64,000 nt of DNA from Methanosarcina sp. MSH10X1 (GCF_004099695.1 NZ_SCHL01000003.1:124001-188000); one strand, 5' to 3'; numbered from the stretch's first letter, positions 13,666 to 23,847 are shown. The notes: generated by a model not told the origin, from the letters alone. Program-made: numbers and translations.

Positions 13666-16600
13666 ATGAATTGTGGGGGCCTTATGTCTGTACCTGTAAT
13701 TGAAAGCGGCTTAAATGGAAATCTGGAAAAGTACCTGAAAAATGTAATACTGGAAAACAGGGATAAAATCTGTAACTATGCAGAACTATCTGCCAGAGAG
13801 ATATTGCCAATCACGCGCAGGCTTTTCGAAGAAAGAGTTACCCTCGCCTACGACTTCGAAATTTCTCAAATTGTGGAAAAAGAAAGGCACCTGATAATTT
13901 ACGGGGAAGCAGGTTCGGGAAAGACAAGCACTCTTAAGTGGCTGAGTACTGTATATGCCAGGCAATACCTTGTACAAAAAGAAGGATGTGTTCCAATTTA
14001 TGTGGCACTCGATTCCTATGCTAAAGGCTCTTTTTATAATTACCTGAAAGCAAAAGTAACGGAAAAAGGCATTTCTGAGGCAGAATTTAAGAAATTGCTC
14101 GAAGGAAAAGCCCTGCTGCTGCTGGACGGGCTTGACCTGCTCACACCTTCTGATAACTTTTCCCCTTTTGATGAGGTCTCGGATTTTATTTCCGAGTATG
14201 AAGACTGCAGATACGTTGTTGCCTCGAGACCCGACCCTCTTGATGGCTTAAAAGGTACATTTGCACTTTCCGAACTTGAAAAATTGACCGATGAAAAAAT
14301 CAAACTGTTTATAGCAAAGAATGTCCCTAATAAGCGACAGGCAAAGCTTTTAACAGCCAGGTGTTTAAACGAGATTCATTTAAAACCAATCCTTCGAAAC
14401 TCTCTACTGCTCTATATCTGGATCAAAATTTCAATGGCTCACATGGGGTTGAGAGAAAAAGCTGAAGATATTCAATACTTTACCCTTGACGATTCTATCC
14501 CCTCAAGCCGGGCAGAAATCTACCAGGCATTCATTTCAGAGCTTTTTAAGGGCTGCAGGGTAAGAGAGGAATTTTTCAGGTCTCGAAGCCGACTACCTGT
14601 GAAAATAGATTATGAAAGGGCAGGCTCTGAAAGAATACCTCGCGGAAGAATAGATCCTCAGGAACTGAATACTGGAAAGACGGACATAGAAAATATTCTT
14701 ATGAACCTATCTTTCAGGCTCCAGTGCAGGAACAAGGTTTCATGTAAGTACAGTTATGCCCTTGAGGTGGCAAAAGAATACACGGAATGCAGCAGATCCG
14801 GAAAAACAAGAGCCACAAGGTTCCTTCAGGCCTGCTTGGGGCTCGGGCTCCTTATAAGAAAGAGATCTGAGGTAAGGCTTGGAATAAACCGGTCCTTTCA
14901 GGAATATTTTGCGGCTTTAAAGCTTAAAACATACTTTGAAAGCGGAATGGATATCTCAAAGGCTTTCAGGCACCCGAGATGGGAAAATGTAATAGTGCTT
15001 ACCTCGGAGTTAGTAGAATCAGGAGAAGAGTTCGTAAATTCAATCGTTTCAAGTGGGAATTTGCATTTAGCTTCAAAATGTGCTGCGAGAGCCAGCACTG
15101 AGACAAAGGGAAAATTGTGTGCCTTACTTGCCAGGAACCTTGATAGTAAATACACCGTAGAGAAAGTAAGGGCTGTCCAGAGCCTGGGGAGGCTGGGAAC
15201 CTGCGGAATCAGAGCCAATTTAGGAGCACTTGGGGATAAGGATGTAGGGGTAAAAAGAGAGACCGCAAAAGTGCTTGGAGAAACAAGGTCCGAGATGGCA
15301 CTTGCTCCTCTTGAGACCGCAGTTGGAGACGAAGACTACTCTGTGAGGATAGAGGCTGTAAAGTCTCTCGGGATAATAGGGTCCGAGAGAGCTATCGAGA
15401 TTCTCAGGAACGCATTTGCGGATAAGAACCGGGCTGTTCGTCTGGAAGCCGCCGAAGCTTTGATGCAGATAGGATCTGAGAAAGCCCTGGAAATCCTTGT
15501 TTCTGCACTTGGAGCCAGTGACGATTTCGTCCGTATTGGGGCTATAGGGGCTCTTGGCAGGACAAATTCCAGAAAAGCGGCAGAAGCTCTTATAGAAGCG
15601 TTTAAGGAAGAAGACCGGCTTGTCCGGTTAGGAGCCGCCGAAGCTCTGGGTCAGATGAAATCGGAAAAGGCTGTTGAACTGTTCATAAATGCTCTGGAGG
15701 ACGATGACGAATTTGTACGCTGGATTGCTACAAAGGCGCTCGGGGAAATAAGATCGGACAAAACGTCAGGCACATTCGTCAATATGCTCGGAGATAAAAG
15801 TCGCTTTGTTCGAAGGGAGGCCGCAAAGGGGCTGGGTATGGTAGGCTCGGAAAGAACACTTGATCCTCTGGTTTCCGCGCTCTCGGATGAAGATGAGTTT
15901 GTAAGAAAGACAGCCGCTGAATCCCTCGGAGAGATAAAGGCTGAGACAGCTGCTAAAACCCTTATAAATAAACTCCACGATCAAAGCCATTTAGTACGGC
16001 TGGAAGCTGCAAAAGCCCTGGGCGCGCTCAAGGTCCGCAAAGCCATCGTACCGCTTCTTTTTGCACTGGGGGATGAAAACCGTTTTGTCCGGAGGGAAGC
16101 TGCAAGTGCACTCGGGCAGCTCCAATCTGAGAAAGTCCTTGAACCGCTTATCCGTGTTTTTAAGTACGGAGATAGTTTTACAAGGCAGGGGGCAGTAAGA
16201 GCCCTGGGACAGATAAATCCCGATGGGGTGCCTGACTGGATATCGGATAAAGTCTTTGATTTCATTGATAACGCGCTTAAAGACGAAGATAAGCTTGTGC
16301 GGAGGGAAGCCGCAAAAGCCCTGAGAAATTTATCTGAAAGCAGGCTCGAAAGAGCATTTGAGTCCCTTATCAGCGCTCTTGATAATGAAGATGGTGAGGT
16401 CAGGAGACTTGCAGCCGAGTCCCTTGGGCTTTTTGACTGCGAAAGTGCAGTTTCCCAACTGGTTAATGCCCTCAAATCCAGAGACGCAACTGTGCGCCGG
16501 TTTGCAGCCGCAACCCTGGGCAGGATAAGATCAAAAGAAGCCCTTCAGCCCCTTATAGAAGTTCTGGTTCTGGATAACAACGGCTCCGTGAGAGAGGAAG

Positions 16601-17070
16601 CTGCAAAAGCCCTTGGAAAAATAAAGTCCCGAAAAGCTATAGAGCCCCTTATTGACGCGCTGATGGATAGAAACAATGAAGGAAGGTCGGGGGCAGCCGA
16701 AGCTCTCGGCCGGATTAAAGCCGGAAATGCAGTGGATCAACTTATTGCTGCTCTTGAGGATCCGGATGACTTCACGCGGCTGGCTGCCGCAAAAGCACTC
16801 GGAAGGATAAAAGCGAAGAGTGCCATCGAGCCTCTCATAAACACCCTTTATGACTGGAACCGCTTTGTAAAAGCCGAAGCAGCAGGAGCTCTCAAAAGAG
16901 TTTGTGCTAAAGAGGACGAAGTACGCCTGCAGGCTCTACTTGACTCAGAAAACGAATTTGTGGCAAATTTAGCTTTTGAGATCCTGGAAGGCATTGAAAT
17001 GAAGGAAATCCTGAAAACCCGACTGTGGGAATGTCCAGAGAACATTGCTTCTTACAATAGTCAATACTAA
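13666..17070 (+). CDS. NACHT-type STAND NTPase with about 20 HEAT repeats
   Basis: 1134 residues. A short N-terminus (about 75 residues, no known effector domain) leads to a NACHT NTPase: Walker A GEAGSGKT at residues 80-87, Walker B LLLLDGLD at 150-157, and an ASRPDPL sensor-like segment near 190. A helical region then runs to about residue 470. From about residue 500 to 1110 there are 19-20 HEAT repeats of about 31 residues, each with the VR-xx-AA-xx-LG signature. NACHT proteins with repeat sensors act as oligomerising switches, including antiviral STANDs; the target here is unknown. ATG 13666 (AGGT upstream) or ATG 13684 may be the start. Monocistronic. Confidence 0.9.
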   Translation: MNCGGLMSVPVIESGLNGNLEKYLKNVILENRDKICNYAELSAREILPITRRLFEERVTLAYDFEISQIVEKERHLIIYGEAGSGKTSTLKWLSTVYARQYLVQKEGCVPIYVALDSYAKGSFYNYLKAKVTEKGISEAEFKKLLEGKALLLLDGLDLLTPSDNFSPFDEVSDFISEYEDCRYVVASRPDPLDGLKGTFALSELEKLTDEKIKLFIAKNVPNKRQAKLLTARCLNEIHLKPILRNSLLLYIWIKISMAHMGLREKAEDIQYFTLDDSIPSSRAEIYQAFISELFKGCRVREEFFRSRSRLPVKIDYERAGSERIPRGRIDPQELNTGKTDIENILMNLSFRLQCRNKVSCKYSYALEVAKEYTECSRSGKTRATRFLQACLGLGLLIRKRSEVRLGINRSFQEYFAALKLKTYFESGMDISKAFRHPRWENVIVLTSELVESGEEFVNSIVSSGNLHLASKCAARASTETKGKLCALLARNLDSKYTVEKVRAVQSLGRLGTCGIRANLGALGDKDVGVKRETAKVLGETRSEMALAPLETAVGDEDYSVRIEAVKSLGIIGSERAIEILRNAFADKNRAVRLEAAEALMQIGSEKALEILVSALGASDDFVRIGAIGALGRTNSRKAAEALIEAFKEEDRLVRLGAAEALGQMKSEKAVELFINALEDDDEFVRWIATKALGEIRSDKTSGTFVNMLGDKSRFVRREAAKGLGMVGSERTLDPLVSALSDEDEFVRKTAAESLGEIKAETAAKTLINKLHDQSHLVRLEAAKALGALKVRKAIVPLLFALGDENRFVRREAASALGQLQSEKVLEPLIRVFKYGDSFTRQGAVRALGQINPDGVPDWISDKVFDFIDNALKDEDKLVRREAAKALRNLSESRLERAFESLISALDNEDGEVRRLAAESLGLFDCESAVSQLVNALKSRDATVRRFAAATLGRIRSKEALQPLIEVLVLDNNGSVREEAAKALGKIKSRKAIEPLIDALMDRNNEGRSGAAEALGRIKAGNAVDQLIAALEDPDDFTRLAAAKALGRIKAKSAIEPLINTLYDWNRFVKAEAAGALKRVCAKEDEVRLQALLDSENEFVANLAFEILEGIEMKEILKTRLWECPENIASYNSQY

Positions 17071-17770: not shown

Positions 17771-18121
17771 GTTTACCTGAATTTATTTAACAATTGAATT
17801 AATTCAGTGGAGTAGGCGTGTTGTAAGCCTGTTTTTTATATTCGCCTCCGCTAATGGCTTAGAGAGGTAAAAGAAGTTTTGAGATAAGCCGGAATATCGC
17901 TTTATACTCTATTGCGCTTTAAAAGAATAAGATATTTGTGAACTGAGTTTATCTTTCAAATAATAGAACTAAATTATATTTTACATTCAGCCATCTTTGA
18001 GAAGTTACTGCCGTTTTCAGGTATAAAGAAGGAAGAAAAAGAAAAAACAAATGGAAAAGAAGCGATAAAAAGGAAAAAATAGAAAAGAAGAGGCAAAAGT
18101 GTAATTGTGGTGTTTTCCGCT
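17771..18121. other. Intergenic region
   Basis: About 350 bp between the broken membrane-protein gene and an orphan gene, both on the minus strand. AT-rich; I see no gene or clear signal. Confidence 0.5.
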
Positions 18122-19268: not shown

Positions 19269-20201
19269 TTATAAATTCTTCATTTTAAGGGGCTCAGGCC
19301 CGTCCTGCTTATCCTGAACATCCGCAAGTATCTCTTCTATACTTGCCCAGATTATCCTGACCTGATTTGCAAACTCATTCTCGTTTGCGTAATCATTGTT
19401 GTCAGCATACTCTATCACGGTTTGTTTGTGAAGCATTGCTTTTGTTGCGATATCATTATACGGAAGCCTGCCAAGTACCGGAATACCAGCCTCGGTGCAG
19501 AATTTTTCAATCAGGCGGGTATTTTCTTTGTTTATATCATATTTGTTGATGCAGACAAGGGTCGGGATCATGAAATGTGCAGCGAGCTCAAGGACTCTTT
19601 TGAGATCATGGATTCCTGAGACCGTTGGTTCGACTATCACCAGAACCAGGTCTGCCCCTGTAATAGCTGCAATAGCTGAGCAGCCTGTGCCTGGAGGCCC
19701 ATCGATAATAATTAGACCCTTATGGTATTGTTCTGCAAGTTTCTTTGCATTGCTTCGGACGGCGCTTACAAGTTTTCCGCTTGCCTCTTCCCCGATACCC
19801 AGCCGTGCGTGAGCCATTGGTCCAAAACGGGTTTCAGAATAAAAAACCTGACCTGAGACTCTTTTTCCCATGTAAACCGCCCCTTCGGAACAAACAATGG
19901 TGCAGACTGCACAGCCCTCGCATCTGTAAGGATCAACTTCGAAATTTTCGTTTACTGCCCCATACCTGCAAAATTCTCTGCATTTCCCGCATCCGATACA
20001 GAGTTCCGGGTCAATCCTGGAGACCTCAAGGCCAAAATAGTCTTCTTTTTTGAGAATTCCGGGTTCCAGAATAAGGTGCATGTCAGCTGCATCCACATCG
20101 CAATCTGCAATAACTGCGTTTTCAGCAAGCGAGGCAAAAGCTGCCGTAAGGGTTGTCTTTCCAGTCCCGCCCTTCCCACTGATTACAGTAAGCTGTATCA
20201 T
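19269..20201 (-). CDS. MinD/ParA-type ATPase with inserted 2x[4Fe-4S] ferredoxin domain (second of pair)
   Basis: 310 residues. The deviant Walker A motif SGKGGTGKTT is at residues 8-17. A ferredoxin domain is inserted at about residues 60-115 with CIGCGKCREFCR and CEGCAVCTIVCS. Walker B-like IIIDGPPGTGCSAIA and VEPTVSGIHDLKR follow. The related ORP3/ORP4 proteins of sulfate reducers have the same architecture and work with NifX-like orange proteins. The ATG overlaps the stop of the upstream paralogue by 4 nt (ATGA), so the two are translationally coupled and probably form a heterodimer. Likely role: ATP-dependent handling of a metal or Fe-S cofactor (inference). Confidence 0.9.
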   Translation of the reverse strand: MIQLTVISGKGGTGKTTLTAAFASLAENAVIADCDVDAADMHLILEPGILKKEDYFGLEVSRIDPELCIGCGKCREFCRYGAVNENFEVDPYRCEGCAVCTIVCSEGAVYMGKRVSGQVFYSETRFGPMAHARLGIGEEASGKLVSAVRSNAKKLAEQYHKGLIIIDGPPGTGCSAIAAITGADLVLVIVEPTVSGIHDLKRVLELAAHFMIPTLVCINKYDINKENTRLIEKFCTEAGIPVLGRLPYNDIATKAMLHKQTVIEYADNNDYANENEFANQVRIIWASIEEILADVQDKQDGPEPLKMKNL

Positions 20202-21055
20202 ATTGTTAGTTCCTCCTTAACCGCAAGCTGGAGTTTTATTGCCTCGGACACGCCGAGAAACTTCTCTCTCCATTCCGGCATTTCTCGAACAAAGGGAATG
20301 CCCTGAGAATAGAGTTCTGCAATTTTGCGGTCGTTTGGAATCTTGAGGAGAACCGGGATCCCTTCGGCATTACAGTATTCCTCAACTCTTGAGTCACCTA
20401 ACCCATACCGGTTAATGATAACCCCAAAAGGAATCTTAATCGTCCTTACAACATCTACTGCAAGCCTGAGGTCATGGAGACCGAAAGGAGTTGATTCCGT
20501 CACAAGCACGCAGTAACTCATGCCTTCTACAGAGGCGATAACCGGACAGGCAGTCCCTGGGGGAGCATCGAGAATTGCAATTTTCCTGTCATCGATGTAT
20601 TTCTTGAGTCTTTTGATAACAGCCGATGTCATAGTTTCCCCGATATTCAAAAGCCCCCTGTAAAACTCCGGGTAACTTTCTCCTTTTGCCTTCTCTATCA
20701 CTCCAAGGGGCCTCTGAACTTCCCGAATTGCATTTTCCGGACAGAGAACTGTGCATCCCCCGCACCCGTGGCAGAGAGAAGGGAAAAATAGAATTCTGCC
20801 AGGAAGTGCAGCCAGGGCGTTATAACGGCAAAAGTCCGAACACTGCCTGCAAATGCTGCATTTTTCCTGATTGATTACAGGCACCGGGCAAACAACATCT
20901 TCTACTTTCTCAAGGTCAAAGCCAAGGAAGAGATTACAATTAGGTTCTTCCACATCACAGTCAAAAAGCTGTACATCGGAGAGGGCAAGGGCGAGATTTA
21001 AGGAAACCGTGGTCTTTCCTGTCCCCCCTTTCCCGCTTGCAATTACAATCTTCAT
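20198..21055 (-). CDS. MinD/ParA-type ATPase with inserted 2x[4Fe-4S] ferredoxin domain (first of pair)
   Basis: 285 residues from ATG 21055 (MKIVIASGKGGTGKTT), preceded by GGAG; a longer frame to 21121 would overlap the upstream gene and adds non-homologous residues. Ferredoxin inserts CSICRQCSDFCR and CHGCGGCTVLCP lie at about residues 65-115. AILDAPPGTACPVIA and TESTPFGLHDLRL are the switch regions. It is clearly paralogous to the next gene, with which it overlaps by 4 nt. It sits 13 nt downstream of the CDF transporter gene. The trio and the two NifX-like genes upstream probably make one functional locus. Confidence 0.9.
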   Translation of the reverse strand: MKIVIASGKGGTGKTTVSLNLALALSDVQLFDCDVEEPNCNLFLGFDLEKVEDVVCPVPVINQEKCSICRQCSDFCRYNALAALPGRILFFPSLCHGCGGCTVLCPENAIREVQRPLGVIEKAKGESYPEFYRGLLNIGETMTSAVIKRLKKYIDDRKIAILDAPPGTACPVIASVEGMSYCVLVTESTPFGLHDLRLAVDVVRTIKIPFGVIINRYGLGDSRVEEYCNAEGIPVLLKIPNDRKIAELYSQGIPFVREMPEWREKFLGVSEAIKLQLAVKEELTI

Positions 21056-21068
21056 ATTCGGTCTCCAT

Positions 21069-22304
21069 TTATTCCATAGGAGCTGTGATTTCTTCAAGAT
21101 CCTGAAACCTGTCAAGGACATCTCTGACAGTAGCTGCCCCTTCAGGGATTCGCAGAATTTTTATAAAATTATCCCGGAGCATGTAGAAGGGACCCTCGGC
21201 AACCGTTTTTACCGCAATAGCATTTGCCTTTTCCCTGATGACCAAGTCCACAGCTTTTACGCCTCTTTTTTTCTCGGAATTGGAAAACAGATTTTCGAGA
21301 ATTTTCCAATCTCCCGCCCTGCCTTCTTCAAGCTCTATAAGGAGAAAATAAGGGGCTTTTCCGATGTGCTCCGAAAGCTTCGCTTGAAACCCGCCTCTTT
21401 CGAGAACAGGTAGAGCTAGCTTTAAGTTCTTCCTGCGTACTGGCTTCACATTGACAACAATATGTTCCAGGTTTTCCACTTCTTTTTTAACAGCCGTTTT
21501 GATATCCTCCGAAAGCAACTCAACTCTTTGCAGGTCGGTTTCGCCTTCCACCTCAACTGTGGCTTCCCCAAAAACCACAAGTCCGGACTTTCGGAGTTTC
21601 AGGTCCTCAAGCTCTATCAAGCCAGGGATATTGTATATGTTTTTTCTGATCCTCTCGCTTTCCTCTTCATCAAGCCAGGCATCCATCAGGGTAAGCACGG
21701 CATCTCTGGCACTTTCGATCCCCATCTTGAAGATCAAAAGAGAAATTACGATAACGCCGAGGCTGTCAAGTTTCGAAAACCCCAGCATGGAGCCCAGCAC
21801 TGCCACAACCACAACAAGGGAAGAAAAAACATCCGTATAAGAATGCCTTGCGTCAGTTATCAGGGCCTGAGAGTTGATCCTGATTCCTGCATTTCGTTTG
21901 TATATTGAAAGCCCATAGATCATAAGCACGGAAAAGACGGCTGTTGCAAGGGCAAGTCCCTGAAATTCAAATTCGGAGGTGGTATCTACGCCTGTAAAGC
22001 CCTCTTTCAGCAGCTCAAAGCCAGAAAACAGGATTAATAGGGATACAAAGAGAGCTACAATGTTTTCTGCTTTGTAATAGCCGTAAGGGAAATGTTTTCC
22101 GCCGCTTTTAAGGCTTATCTTGAGTCCGACCCAGACTGCCAGAGAGGCAAAAATATCCAGTCCAGTATGGACAGCATCCGCAAGCAAAACCGTACTCCCG
22201 GAGTAAATACCCACAGCCCCTTTAAGAAAAGCAAGGAATGCAAGCGCCAGAGTCGCGTTTCTGGATGCTTTAACCCCGAGTTTTAAGTTCTCCTGTACAA
22301 TCAT
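21069..22304 (-). CDS. Cation diffusion facilitator fused to a NifX/NifB-like domain
   Basis: 411 residues. Residues about 15-205 are a CDF transporter with six predicted membrane helices. Metal-site residues are visible in helix 2 (ADAVHTGLD) and helix 5 (TDARHSYTD), an H/D-type tetrad associated with Zn/Co/Fe carriers. A cytoplasmic CDF domain follows (about 210-285, ERIRKNIYNIPGLIELEDLKLR). Residues about 290-411 form a dinitrogenase iron-molybdenum cofactor (NifX-like) domain (LSEHIGKAPYFLLIELEEG, then AEGPFYMLRDN). The extra domain is the same family as the two small proteins encoded just upstream. It suggests a carrier that exports or delivers a metal bound by NifX-type proteins. Confidence 0.88.
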   Translation of the reverse strand: MIVQENLKLGVKASRNATLALAFLAFLKGAVGIYSGSTVLLADAVHTGLDIFASLAVWVGLKISLKSGGKHFPYGYYKAENIVALFVSLLILFSGFELLKEGFTGVDTTSEFEFQGLALATAVFSVLMIYGLSIYKRNAGIRINSQALITDARHSYTDVFSSLVVVVAVLGSMLGFSKLDSLGVIVISLLIFKMGIESARDAVLTLMDAWLDEEESERIRKNIYNIPGLIELEDLKLRKSGLVVFGEATVEVEGETDLQRVELLSEDIKTAVKKEVENLEHIVVNVKPVRRKNLKLALPVLERGGFQAKLSEHIGKAPYFLLIELEEGRAGDWKILENLFSNSEKKRGVKAVDLVIREKANAIAVKTVAEGPFYMLRDNFIKILRIPEGAATVRDVLDRFQDLEEITAPME

Positions 22305-22411
22305 TTGAAGACCGTTTAAAGACGAATTCTCGGTTTATCCCGTAGTATAGAATACTGAAGTTGCAGAAAATTAAAGCATTTCCGGCACTCTCTGGAAGCC
22401 GTACTCGCATC

Positions 22412-22786
22412 TCAGTGGTGATGCTCCTCATGCCCATGCTCGGAACAGGAATTCTCATCAGTTGCATTCTGAAGCTTTCCTGTTTTCCAGGCTTCAAACG
22501 CATCCCTTACTGTGCCGCCAGCGCCTACAAAAACCTTAATTCCGTAGGATTCAAACATACAAACAGCTTTGAACCCGAGCCCGCCACAGAGCATGATATC
22601 AACTCCATTCTGGTTAAGGTATTCAGGAGGAAGTCCGGCACCTTCCATATGCTCGCTGATATTGGGAATTACTGTGACCTGATCGGTTTCCGTATCTATT
22701 ATGGTGTAGGTGGGAGCTTTTCCAAAGTGCGGCTCAACAATTCCTTCCAGACCATTTTCATCTCTTGTAGGAATACTTACTTTCAT
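22412..22786 (-). CDS. NifX/NifB-like dinitrogenase cofactor-domain protein with His-rich tail
   Basis: 124 residues from ATG 22786 (MKVSIPTRDENGLEG); a longer frame to 22819 adds 11 unlikely residues. The domain shows IVEPHFGKAPTYTIID, ENHM-type loops (SEHMEGAGLPPEYLNQ) and VDIMLCGGLGFKA, all typical of the Nif cofactor-binding fold. The tail is rich in histidine (SEHGHEEHHH), a probable metal-binding extension. Single-domain members include the Mo-Cu orange protein of Desulfovibrio, but also many proteins of unknown role. It lies about 100 bp upstream of the CDF gene in the same direction. Confidence 0.88.
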   Translation of the reverse strand: MKVSIPTRDENGLEGIVEPHFGKAPTYTIIDTETDQVTVIPNISEHMEGAGLPPEYLNQNGVDIMLCGGLGFKAVCMFESYGIKVFVGAGGTVRDAFEAWKTGKLQNATDENSCSEHGHEEHHH

Positions 22787-22965
22787 AGAATCACCTGCAT
22801 TTCTTATTATCCTTATCAATCAGTGGTGTTATTATTGCACTGTTTTTTATTCTCAATATTATACAACTATCAGATTATGAAGATGCAAAAAAATTATGCC
22901 GTTTTTCATACATGGAGGAACGTGTCTATTAGATTCGGTTTTGCTAACTTTGCCAGGACTGGCAC

Positions 22966-23397
22966 TTACATGCCTCTGCCCATTCCCCTTCCCATGCCAC
23001 CCCCCTTCATTCCTTTTCCCTTACCGTCTCCTTTTCTCATACCAAAACCCGGAGTGCTGTTGGGACTGCGGATTGATTGAAGTTCTCCAGCCTCATACTG
23101 CCTGATAGCCTCCCCAACCGTACCCTTTGCCCCAACCTGAACATCAATACCGAGTTCTGCGAAAATCGAAAAAGCGTTGGGACCTGCACCGCCTGTTAAG
23201 AGTACACCGACCCCTGCATTCGCAACAACCTCGGCTGCTTTGATACCGGCGCCGCCGGAAGCTGCTGCATTTACATTTGATATGGATTCTACAGATCCGG
23301 TCTCGGGGTCATAAATTATAAAGTAACTGCATCTCCCAAACCTGGGGTCCACTTCGGAGTCGAGACCTTCACTACTGGCTGTTACGCAAATCTTCAT
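22966..23397 (-). CDS. NifX/NifB-like dinitrogenase cofactor-domain protein with Gly-Met tail
   Basis: 143 residues from ATG 23397, chosen because GGAGGAG lies 8 nt upstream; a longer frame to 23466 covers this ribosome binding site and is unlikely. The domain (KICVTASSEGLDSEVDPRFG, AASGGAGIKAAEVVANAGVGV, LTGGAGPNAFSIF) is complete by about residue 115. The tail is a low-complexity run of Gly, Met, Lys and Arg (KGKGMKGGGMGRGM). A methionine-rich tail could bind soft metals such as copper, in contrast to the His tail of its neighbour. It is the first gene of the minus-strand set that runs to the MinD pair. Confidence 0.88.
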   Translation of the reverse strand: MKICVTASSEGLDSEVDPRFGRCSYFIIYDPETGSVESISNVNAAASGGAGIKAAEVVANAGVGVLLTGGAGPNAFSIFAELGIDVQVGAKGTVGEAIRQYEAGELQSIRSPNSTPGFGMRKGDGKGKGMKGGGMGRGMGRGM

Positions 23398-23847
23398 TCT
23401 TCTTACTCCTCCTATTTTCTTGCGACCATTTATATCCGAGAGTTCTGAAAGTCTATTTTCTCTCATATGAGTGAAAGTATTTATATATTTCCTTTTGGGC
23501 AGAAAATTATTGCATTTATTCGAGATTGCATATAATTCCCTGACAAAAAAGTAAAGAATAAGTCCGAAATCTTCGATTCTCTTTTAAAAACAGGATATTA
23601 AAAAAATAAAACTATCAAATCCAGGAACAAAACCATGAAGAGTTTCGCTACTGGAACTGGTTTTGTATCCTGCCAGCGCAGAAGCTAAAGTTCTCAGCCC
23701 TGGGTTTTAAGTTTTGATTCAAAAACAAACTCTTTCGGTAGAGATCTCAGGAAGAGTTTCCTGAAAGACCTTAAACTGCCAGGATAGAAATTATATTTAT
23801 AGACCTGTATCCAGTCCTTCATCGAATCCTTATGTTTCGGAAGCCGA
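23398..23847. other. Intergenic region
   Basis: About 450 bp between the MiaB-like gene and the NifX-like gene. The right part holds the probable promoter of the NifX/CDF/MinD set only at its left edge (AAATATATAAATAC on the minus strand, about 23477-23490). An open frame at 23694-23912 overlaps the end of the MiaB-like gene and looks spurious. Confidence 0.45.

Follow-up and report, generated by a model that had tools for sequence, protein, structure and literature searches.

Known systems and the Methanosarcina locus

The orange-protein (ORP) gene set of Desulfovibrio includes Orp3 and Orp4, a MinD-ferredoxin pair, Orp8, a single NifX domain, and Orp9, which has a NifX domain with the motif CxHFGHCE (PMC6345978). 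Orp5 is a further component of the ORP complex. IssA of Pyrococcus furiosus serves in thioferrate storage, with its cationic glycine-rich tail tied to thioferrate binding, and MTH1175 has been placed in the IssA clade (Vaccaro et al., PMC5524996). In M. voltae, growth on pyrite raised the levels of two NifX proteins that resemble IssA (PMC8516115, PMC9431491). In the anaerobic methanotrophic (ANME) archaea, the ANME-2a cluster C5S33_05750-05780 is listed as encoding a CDF protein, two 4Fe-4S proteins, NifX, and a P-loop NTPase (PMC12622379). Here, we describe a five-gene operon from Methanosarcina sp. MSH10X1 (host genome of 3.56 Mb, Methanosarcina type), located on the minus strand at positions 19269 to 23397 of the 64,000-nt stretch analyzed (the window), in which two NifX proteins and two MinD-type ATPases are joined by a CDF-family transporter that itself ends in a NifX domain. 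The module is known in kind from ORP. Within the limited set of papers searched, no description was found of the CDF-NifX fusion or of its repeated association with the module; domain databases may list the architecture.

An initial annotation had reported the MinD pair, the CDF transporter, and two NifX-like proteins in a row on one strand, and Pfam and open reading frame analyses located all five genes there. It had missed the third NifX domain, fused to the CDF protein. The features are as follows, with E values for Pfam matches.
22966..23397, minus strand, NifXa, a-type single NifX/orange-protein domain, 143 amino acids (PF02579, 1.1e-23)
22412..22786, minus strand, NifXb, b-type NifX domain, 124 amino acids (PF02579, 3.7e-19)
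21069..22304, minus strand, CDF-NifX (PF01545, 5e-42; PF16916, 3e-11; PF02579, 5e-10)
20198..21055, minus strand, MinD1, MinD/ParA-type ATPase (CbiA, 2.9e-18, plus Fer4)
19269..20201, minus strand, MinD2, MinD/ParA-type ATPase (CbiA, 2.6e-14, plus Fer4)
23478..23485, minus strand, TATA box TATAAATA, archaeal type, read from the sequence and kept in three relatives
23457..23476, minus strand, putative operator, a 20-bp near-palindrome (TTTCACTCATATGAGAGAAA) that immediately follows the TATA box

The start of MinD1 was set at 21055; a longer reading frame begins at 21121, within the CDF gene. Gaps of 179 nt, 107 nt, and 13 nt separate NifXa from NifXb, NifXb from CDF, and CDF from MinD1, respectively, and the MinD2 start overlaps the MinD1 stop by 4 nt (ATGA). 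This overlap, together with the 13-nt gap, makes translational coupling plausible, in agreement with the coupling previously proposed for the two ATPase genes. Purifying selection acts on each of the five genes (dN/dS, the ratio of nonsynonymous to synonymous substitution rates, of 0.07 to 0.17 against two Methanosarcina relatives), and their order is common to six Methanosarcina genomes, that of the window included, and three genomes of a sister genus. Only four PF02579 domains occur in the whole genome; as three of these lie in the operon, within a span of 2.3 kb, their clustering is not due to chance. No Rfam match for an RNA element was found between window positions 18000 and 24000, and a search of the DNA for plasmid origins returned no match.

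Judged by domain content, the operon and the Desulfovibrio ORP set share two MinD-type ATPases, each with two [4Fe-4S] motifs, an a-type NifX protein of the orange-protein fold (Orp8 or NifXa), and a b-type NifX domain (in Orp9 or NifXb). In Orp9 (MrpORP) the NifX domain is fused to Mrp, whereas NifXb is free and the window operon has no Mrp gene. The operon also differs in adding the CDF-NifX fusion, in the two Cys residues and cationic tail of NifXa, and in its promoter, which comprises an archaeal TATA box and palindrome rather than the sigma54 promoter of Desulfovibrio. The comparison with ORP made in the initial annotation thus agrees with the Orp3/Orp4/Orp8/Orp9 make-up (PMC6345978), NifX-MinD pairing is kept across Bacteria and Archaea, and the view of the operon as the equivalent, in archaea, of the Desulfovibrio ORP genes is supported. 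As was noted at the outset, this gene combination is not known to have a defined function in methanogens; the nearest systems with experimental work behind them are IssA (PMC5524996) and the IssA-like M. voltae proteins (PMC8516115, PMC9431491).

The CDF transporter is fused to a NifX domain

The CDF protein consists of a transporter (residues 1 to 292) followed by a NifX/orange-protein domain that takes up approximately the last 118 residues (∼293 to 411), with the Pfam match to PF02579 at residues 309 to 401. The transporter has six transmembrane (TM) helices, the conserved A-site quartet, and a ZT_dimer domain, the features by which CDF family membership was judged. Its A-site is HD-HD (H46, D50, H154, and D158), invariant in 19 relatives, and the protein contains no Cys. 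In the predicted structure, generated from six sequences (predicted local distance difference test [pLDDT] score, 82), residues 4 to 291 superpose on YiiP (Z score, 25.4) and residues 293 to 411 on the D. gigas orange protein (Z score, 18.3; root mean square deviation, 1.6 Å over 114 residues). A sequence search of the PDB matched the C-terminal domain to MTH1175 and TM1816. The Pfam and structural matches to a NifX domain rule out an ordinary, plain transporter. With YiiP/FieF, MamB/MamM, and ZnT, CDF-NifX shares the six-helix arrangement, an A-site in TM2 and TM5, and the cytosolic position of the ZT_dimer domain; compared with YiiP, it has the additional C-terminal NifX domain, HD-HD in place of DD-HD, and no counterpart of the His of the TM2-TM3 loop site.

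Relatives of CDF-NifX were identified in 94 of 392 genomes of the phylum (E value of ≤1e-60), nearly all at full length, and the fusion was also present in loci from Thermoplasmata, Bathyarchaeota, Aminicenantes, and Omnitrophota. The fused NifX domains largely form one tree group (48 of 53 on one side); 47 of the 53 keep the His of the b type (see below), and the Cys residues of the a type are absent from nearly all.

The transporter is a recurrent but optional partner of the module

The module was surveyed using the ATPases as queries; more than 563 relatives exist, and the survey covers the 80 best matches among them, hence the closest ones. By NCBI lineage, 42 of these loci are bacterial and 35 are archaeal. 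MinD1 and MinD2 stand in tandem at 69 of the 80, and a NifX gene lies on the same strand within 3 kb of MinD1 at 71 (39 of the 42 bacterial loci keep NifX), with at least two NifX genes nearby at 58. Recurrent neighbors include Mrp, DUF5320, DUF1847, a metallo-beta-lactamase fold protein, CGGC, ARMT1-like, and radical SAM proteins. NifX with ferredoxin-bearing MinD proteins is a module widespread in anaerobic bacteria and archaea. In contrast, a CDF gene of any kind was found within the fetched flanks at only 7 of the 80 loci. The neighborhood survey that the initial annotation had put forward as a check thus upheld the NifX-MinD core but showed CDF to be retained at few loci, and the view of the transporter as part of the set holds insofar as it is joined to NifX, even by fusion; with so few CDF loci, it is not a general part of the system.

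CDF-NifX lies within the module in the six Methanosarcina and three sister-genus genomes and in most sampled carriers from another genus of the family. By family, it adjoins module genes in f1, f2, f6, and f7, and it does so as well at loci from Thermoplasmata and Aminicenantes, with varied gene orders. When 20 CDF-NifX neighborhoods from elsewhere in the phylum, outside the family of the window, were inspected, 4 adjoined module genes (L167, L172, L173, and L180); by our estimate from gene number, well under one in 20 would be expected by chance. In most of these neighborhoods, and in genome G448, CDF-NifX is solitary. CDF is, overall, a recurrent but optional partner of the NifX/MinD module in several distant lineages.

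At locus L045 (7217-9285), duplicated ferredoxin/DUF5320 gene pairs stand beside CDF-NifX, NifX, and Mrp, an arrangement resembling the ANME-2a cluster (PMC12622379).

ATPases and free-standing NifX proteins

MinD1 combines a deviant Walker A motif (SGKGGTGKTT) with an inserted 2x[4Fe-4S] ferredoxin; MinD2 also carries an inserted 2x[4Fe-4S] ferredoxin and aligns with MinD1 at 28% identity. The eight ferredoxin Cys residues of MinD1 and C170 are invariant in 23 bacterial and archaeal sequences, with C33 and C228 nearly so, and identity between the window MinD1 and those of 22 module loci is 47 to 64%. The closest fold to the MinD1 model (pLDDT, 92.7) is the Fe-S carrier ApbC (Z score, 22.1), followed closely by MinD, HypB, and BchL. 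A relation of MinD2 to the nitrogenase or F430 ATPases was rejected, its scores lying far short of the curated family cutoffs (nifH, 30 bits against 394; CfbC, 26 bits against 402).

NifXa carries Cys4 and Cys23, which are invariant in an alignment of 15 module relatives, and a 35-residue C-terminal tail rich in Gly, Lys, Arg, and Met (13 Gly and 8 Lys or Arg; predicted pI of 12). The cationic glycine-rich tail is missing from the sister-genus orthologues (L038 and L039). MTH1175 and the D. gigas ORP (DgORP) are the closest solved structures (E value of 1e-20 to 2WFB). NifXb has an HFG motif and a His-rich C terminus (EHGHEEHHH), and it matches only the Di-Nase part of MrpORP (positions 263 to 358; 50.9 bits against a cutoff of 450).

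A tree of 224 NifX domains divides the free-standing ones into an a side, holding NifXa with DgORP, TM1290, and MTH1175 (support, 0.89; the tree lacks P. furiosus IssA), and a b side, holding NifXb with TM1816 (0.99 at an inner node containing both). Support is low at the deep nodes, a usual outcome for domains of ∼100 residues. Loci with two NifX genes mostly have one of each type. Among a-type domains, Cys occurs at position 23 in 73 of 89 and at position 4 in 58 of 89, and among b-type domains the HFG-motif His is present in 69 of 79 and a His-rich tail in 26 of 75.

Promoter region

In several Methanosarcina genomes, the TTTCACTCATATGAGAGAAA near-palindrome is conserved in an equivalent position ahead of nifXa, even though its flanks have diverged. 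A single copy was found in the genome allowing up to two mismatches (the reversed control gave zero). In a second genus, the related sequence CTCATCTGWG follows the TATA box, beside a divergent DUF169 gene. Its most probable role is that of an operator dedicated to this operon; with one site genome-wide, it defines no co-regulated genes.

The intergenic region between nifXa and nifXb (22787-22965) holds a conserved block, TTCCTCCATGTATGAAAAACGG, which at L037:6811-7258 has expanded to several copies of a AAAAACGGTATTATTCACC-like repeat.

Hints of a link to sulfur chemistry

In several genomes of one genus, the operon includes a gene for a ∼640-amino-acid protein with F420-reductase and siroheme nitrite/sulfite reductase domains.
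L042:8705-10630, L049:9819-11744, and L091, in-operon F420-dependent sulfite/nitrite reductase-like gene, 642 amino acids
Methanohalophilus profundi likewise has such a gene within the operon, beside MinD1. The position of this gene inside the operon in relatives ties the operon to sulfur chemistry; the genome of the window has no such gene at an E value of ≤1e-100. FsrII of ANME archaea, characterized as an F420-dependent nitrite reductase (PMC9295563), probably belongs to the same group as the in-operon proteins, and its gene neighborhood is not described in PMC6286981 or PMC9295563. The searched portion of an M. barkeri pyrite proteomics report (PMC10846266) does not mention IssA, nitrogenase, or MinD.

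Proposed function and alternatives

We tentatively propose that the operon serves to scaffold or store metal sulfide, most likely iron-sulfur, and to transfer it, and that this module is coupled to export of divalent metal. The architecture, fusion, conservation, and co-occurrence come from sequence, and the functional roles are drawn by analogy from IssA, MrpORP, and the ApbC/NifH fold class. Like IssA of P. furiosus and members of the uncharacterized IssX clade, NifXa is a single NifX domain with a glycine-rich cationic tail from an anaerobic archaeon, and, on the model of IssA, it could bind a metal-sulfide cluster or polymer with the Cys pair on one side and the tail on the other. NifXb would use its His motif and tail to carry divalent metal to or from NifXa, while MinD1 and MinD2, with two [4Fe-4S] clusters each, may couple ATP hydrolysis to cluster transfer or reduction of the store in the way known for ApbC or NifH-type proteins. 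CDF would rid the cytosol of surplus divalent metal, either Fe(II) or Zn(II), and its cytosolic NifX domain might sense the loaded scaffold or take metal from it, so that filling of the store would be linked to opening of the exit. A dedicated repressor acting at the palindrome could switch the operon. The M. voltae IssA-like proteins agree with Fe-S storage but come from outside this operon.

It is a further, and doubtful, step that the NifX domain of CDF docks with NifXa or NifXb and gates or feeds export, coupling a cytosolic metal-sulfide store to the membrane exporter. Were this the case, it would represent a mode of metal homeostasis that, to our knowledge, has not been described. Fusion of a transporter to the scaffold domain of the module gives a direct hint of the class of metal handled and makes the metal question approachable in genetically tractable Methanosarcina. 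The operon also bears on iron/sulfide storage and balance in methanogens, for which IssA-like proteins have been proposed without known partners.

Several observations weigh against the proposed iron-sulfur storage and export role. Most module copies lack CDF, which in many genomes occurs by itself. The Cys pair of NifXa has no equivalent in the globular domain of P. furiosus IssA, whose sole Cys is in the tail, and that tail is longer (70 versus 35 residues) and rich in aromatics, whereas the tail of NifXa is Met-rich with few aromatics; the two proteins also differ in operon partners. Finally, HD-HD occurs in zinc CDF clades and, together with Asp14 and Asn18, in iron clade 2 (PMC5703985), but the window CDF lacks the Asp14/Asn18 pair, having Ser54 and Asp151, and so does not group with the iron clade by this test. 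Another CDF from the same genome (L206) has both residues; on these grounds zinc is as plausible as iron.

Zinc homeostasis, in which NifXb and the NifX domain of CDF would act as zinc sensors or chaperones, CDF would export Zn(II), and the Fe-S ATPases would provide a tie to the redox or sulfide state, is rather unlikely. It would fit the HD-HD quartet of the zinc clades (PMC5703985), the His-rich tail of NifXb, and the transporters found in other genomes: ZIP beside the module or CDF-NifX (L056, L167, and L172) and Znu/Mnt-type ABC genes near the module (L051, L089, L155, and L198). However, the A-site correlates weakly with metal (PMC5703985), and the quartet has no discriminating power here because all four aligned CDFs of the genome share HD-HD; a metal assignment from it was rejected. 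Two ferredoxin-bearing ATPases and a siroheme reductase neighbor would, moreover, be odd partners for plain zinc export. The candidates for the transported metal are Fe and Zn.

A true orange-protein system, with NifXa holding a Mo-Cu or other Mo-heterometal sulfide cluster and CDF handling the partner metal, appears improbable, even though the gene set is of the ORP kind (Orp3/4/8/9; PMC6345978) and the tree, with modest support, places NifXa on the side of DgORP. The two invariant Cys residues of NifXa are absent from DgORP, which makes noncovalent binding of an S2MoS2CuS2MoS2 cluster less likely, and NifXa has the cationic tail in addition. Divalent cations are the substrates of CDF proteins, and the metal transporters neighboring the module belong to divalent first-row families (CDF, ZIP, and Znu/Mnt-type ABC), with no Mo or Cu transporter identified beside it. 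A Mo-Cu cofactor, the feature of the Desulfovibrio system cited in the initial annotation, was accordingly not supported.

The MinD fold of the ATPases, the polar location of MrpORP in D. vulgaris, and the assignment of the ORP complex to cell division (PMC6345978) would accord with a ParA/McdA-type pair that positions NifX-based metal bodies or acts in division. This is quite improbable, as the inserted 2x[4Fe-4S] ferredoxin with invariant Cys and the further conserved Cys residues point instead to electron or cluster chemistry, and no MinE/ParB-like partner was seen.

Delivery of F430 or nickel is hardly credible: the host is a methanogen and the ANME-2a cluster, similar in content, is assigned to F430 delivery with a nickel transporter in the available part of a network study, where the CDF-NifX fusion is not described (PMC12622379), but that role derives from a predicted network, CDFs as a rule act in export, and F430 would be unexpected at the bacterial MinD-pair loci (42 of 80), nearly all of which keep NifX.

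Other genes in the window

At lower window coordinates, 13666-17070 on the plus strand, lies a gene for a 1,134-amino-acid P-loop NTPase with a long HEAT-repeat array, a candidate STAND-like protein for defense or signaling; its best PADLOC match was HEAT-ARM_XIII (E value, 4e-41).

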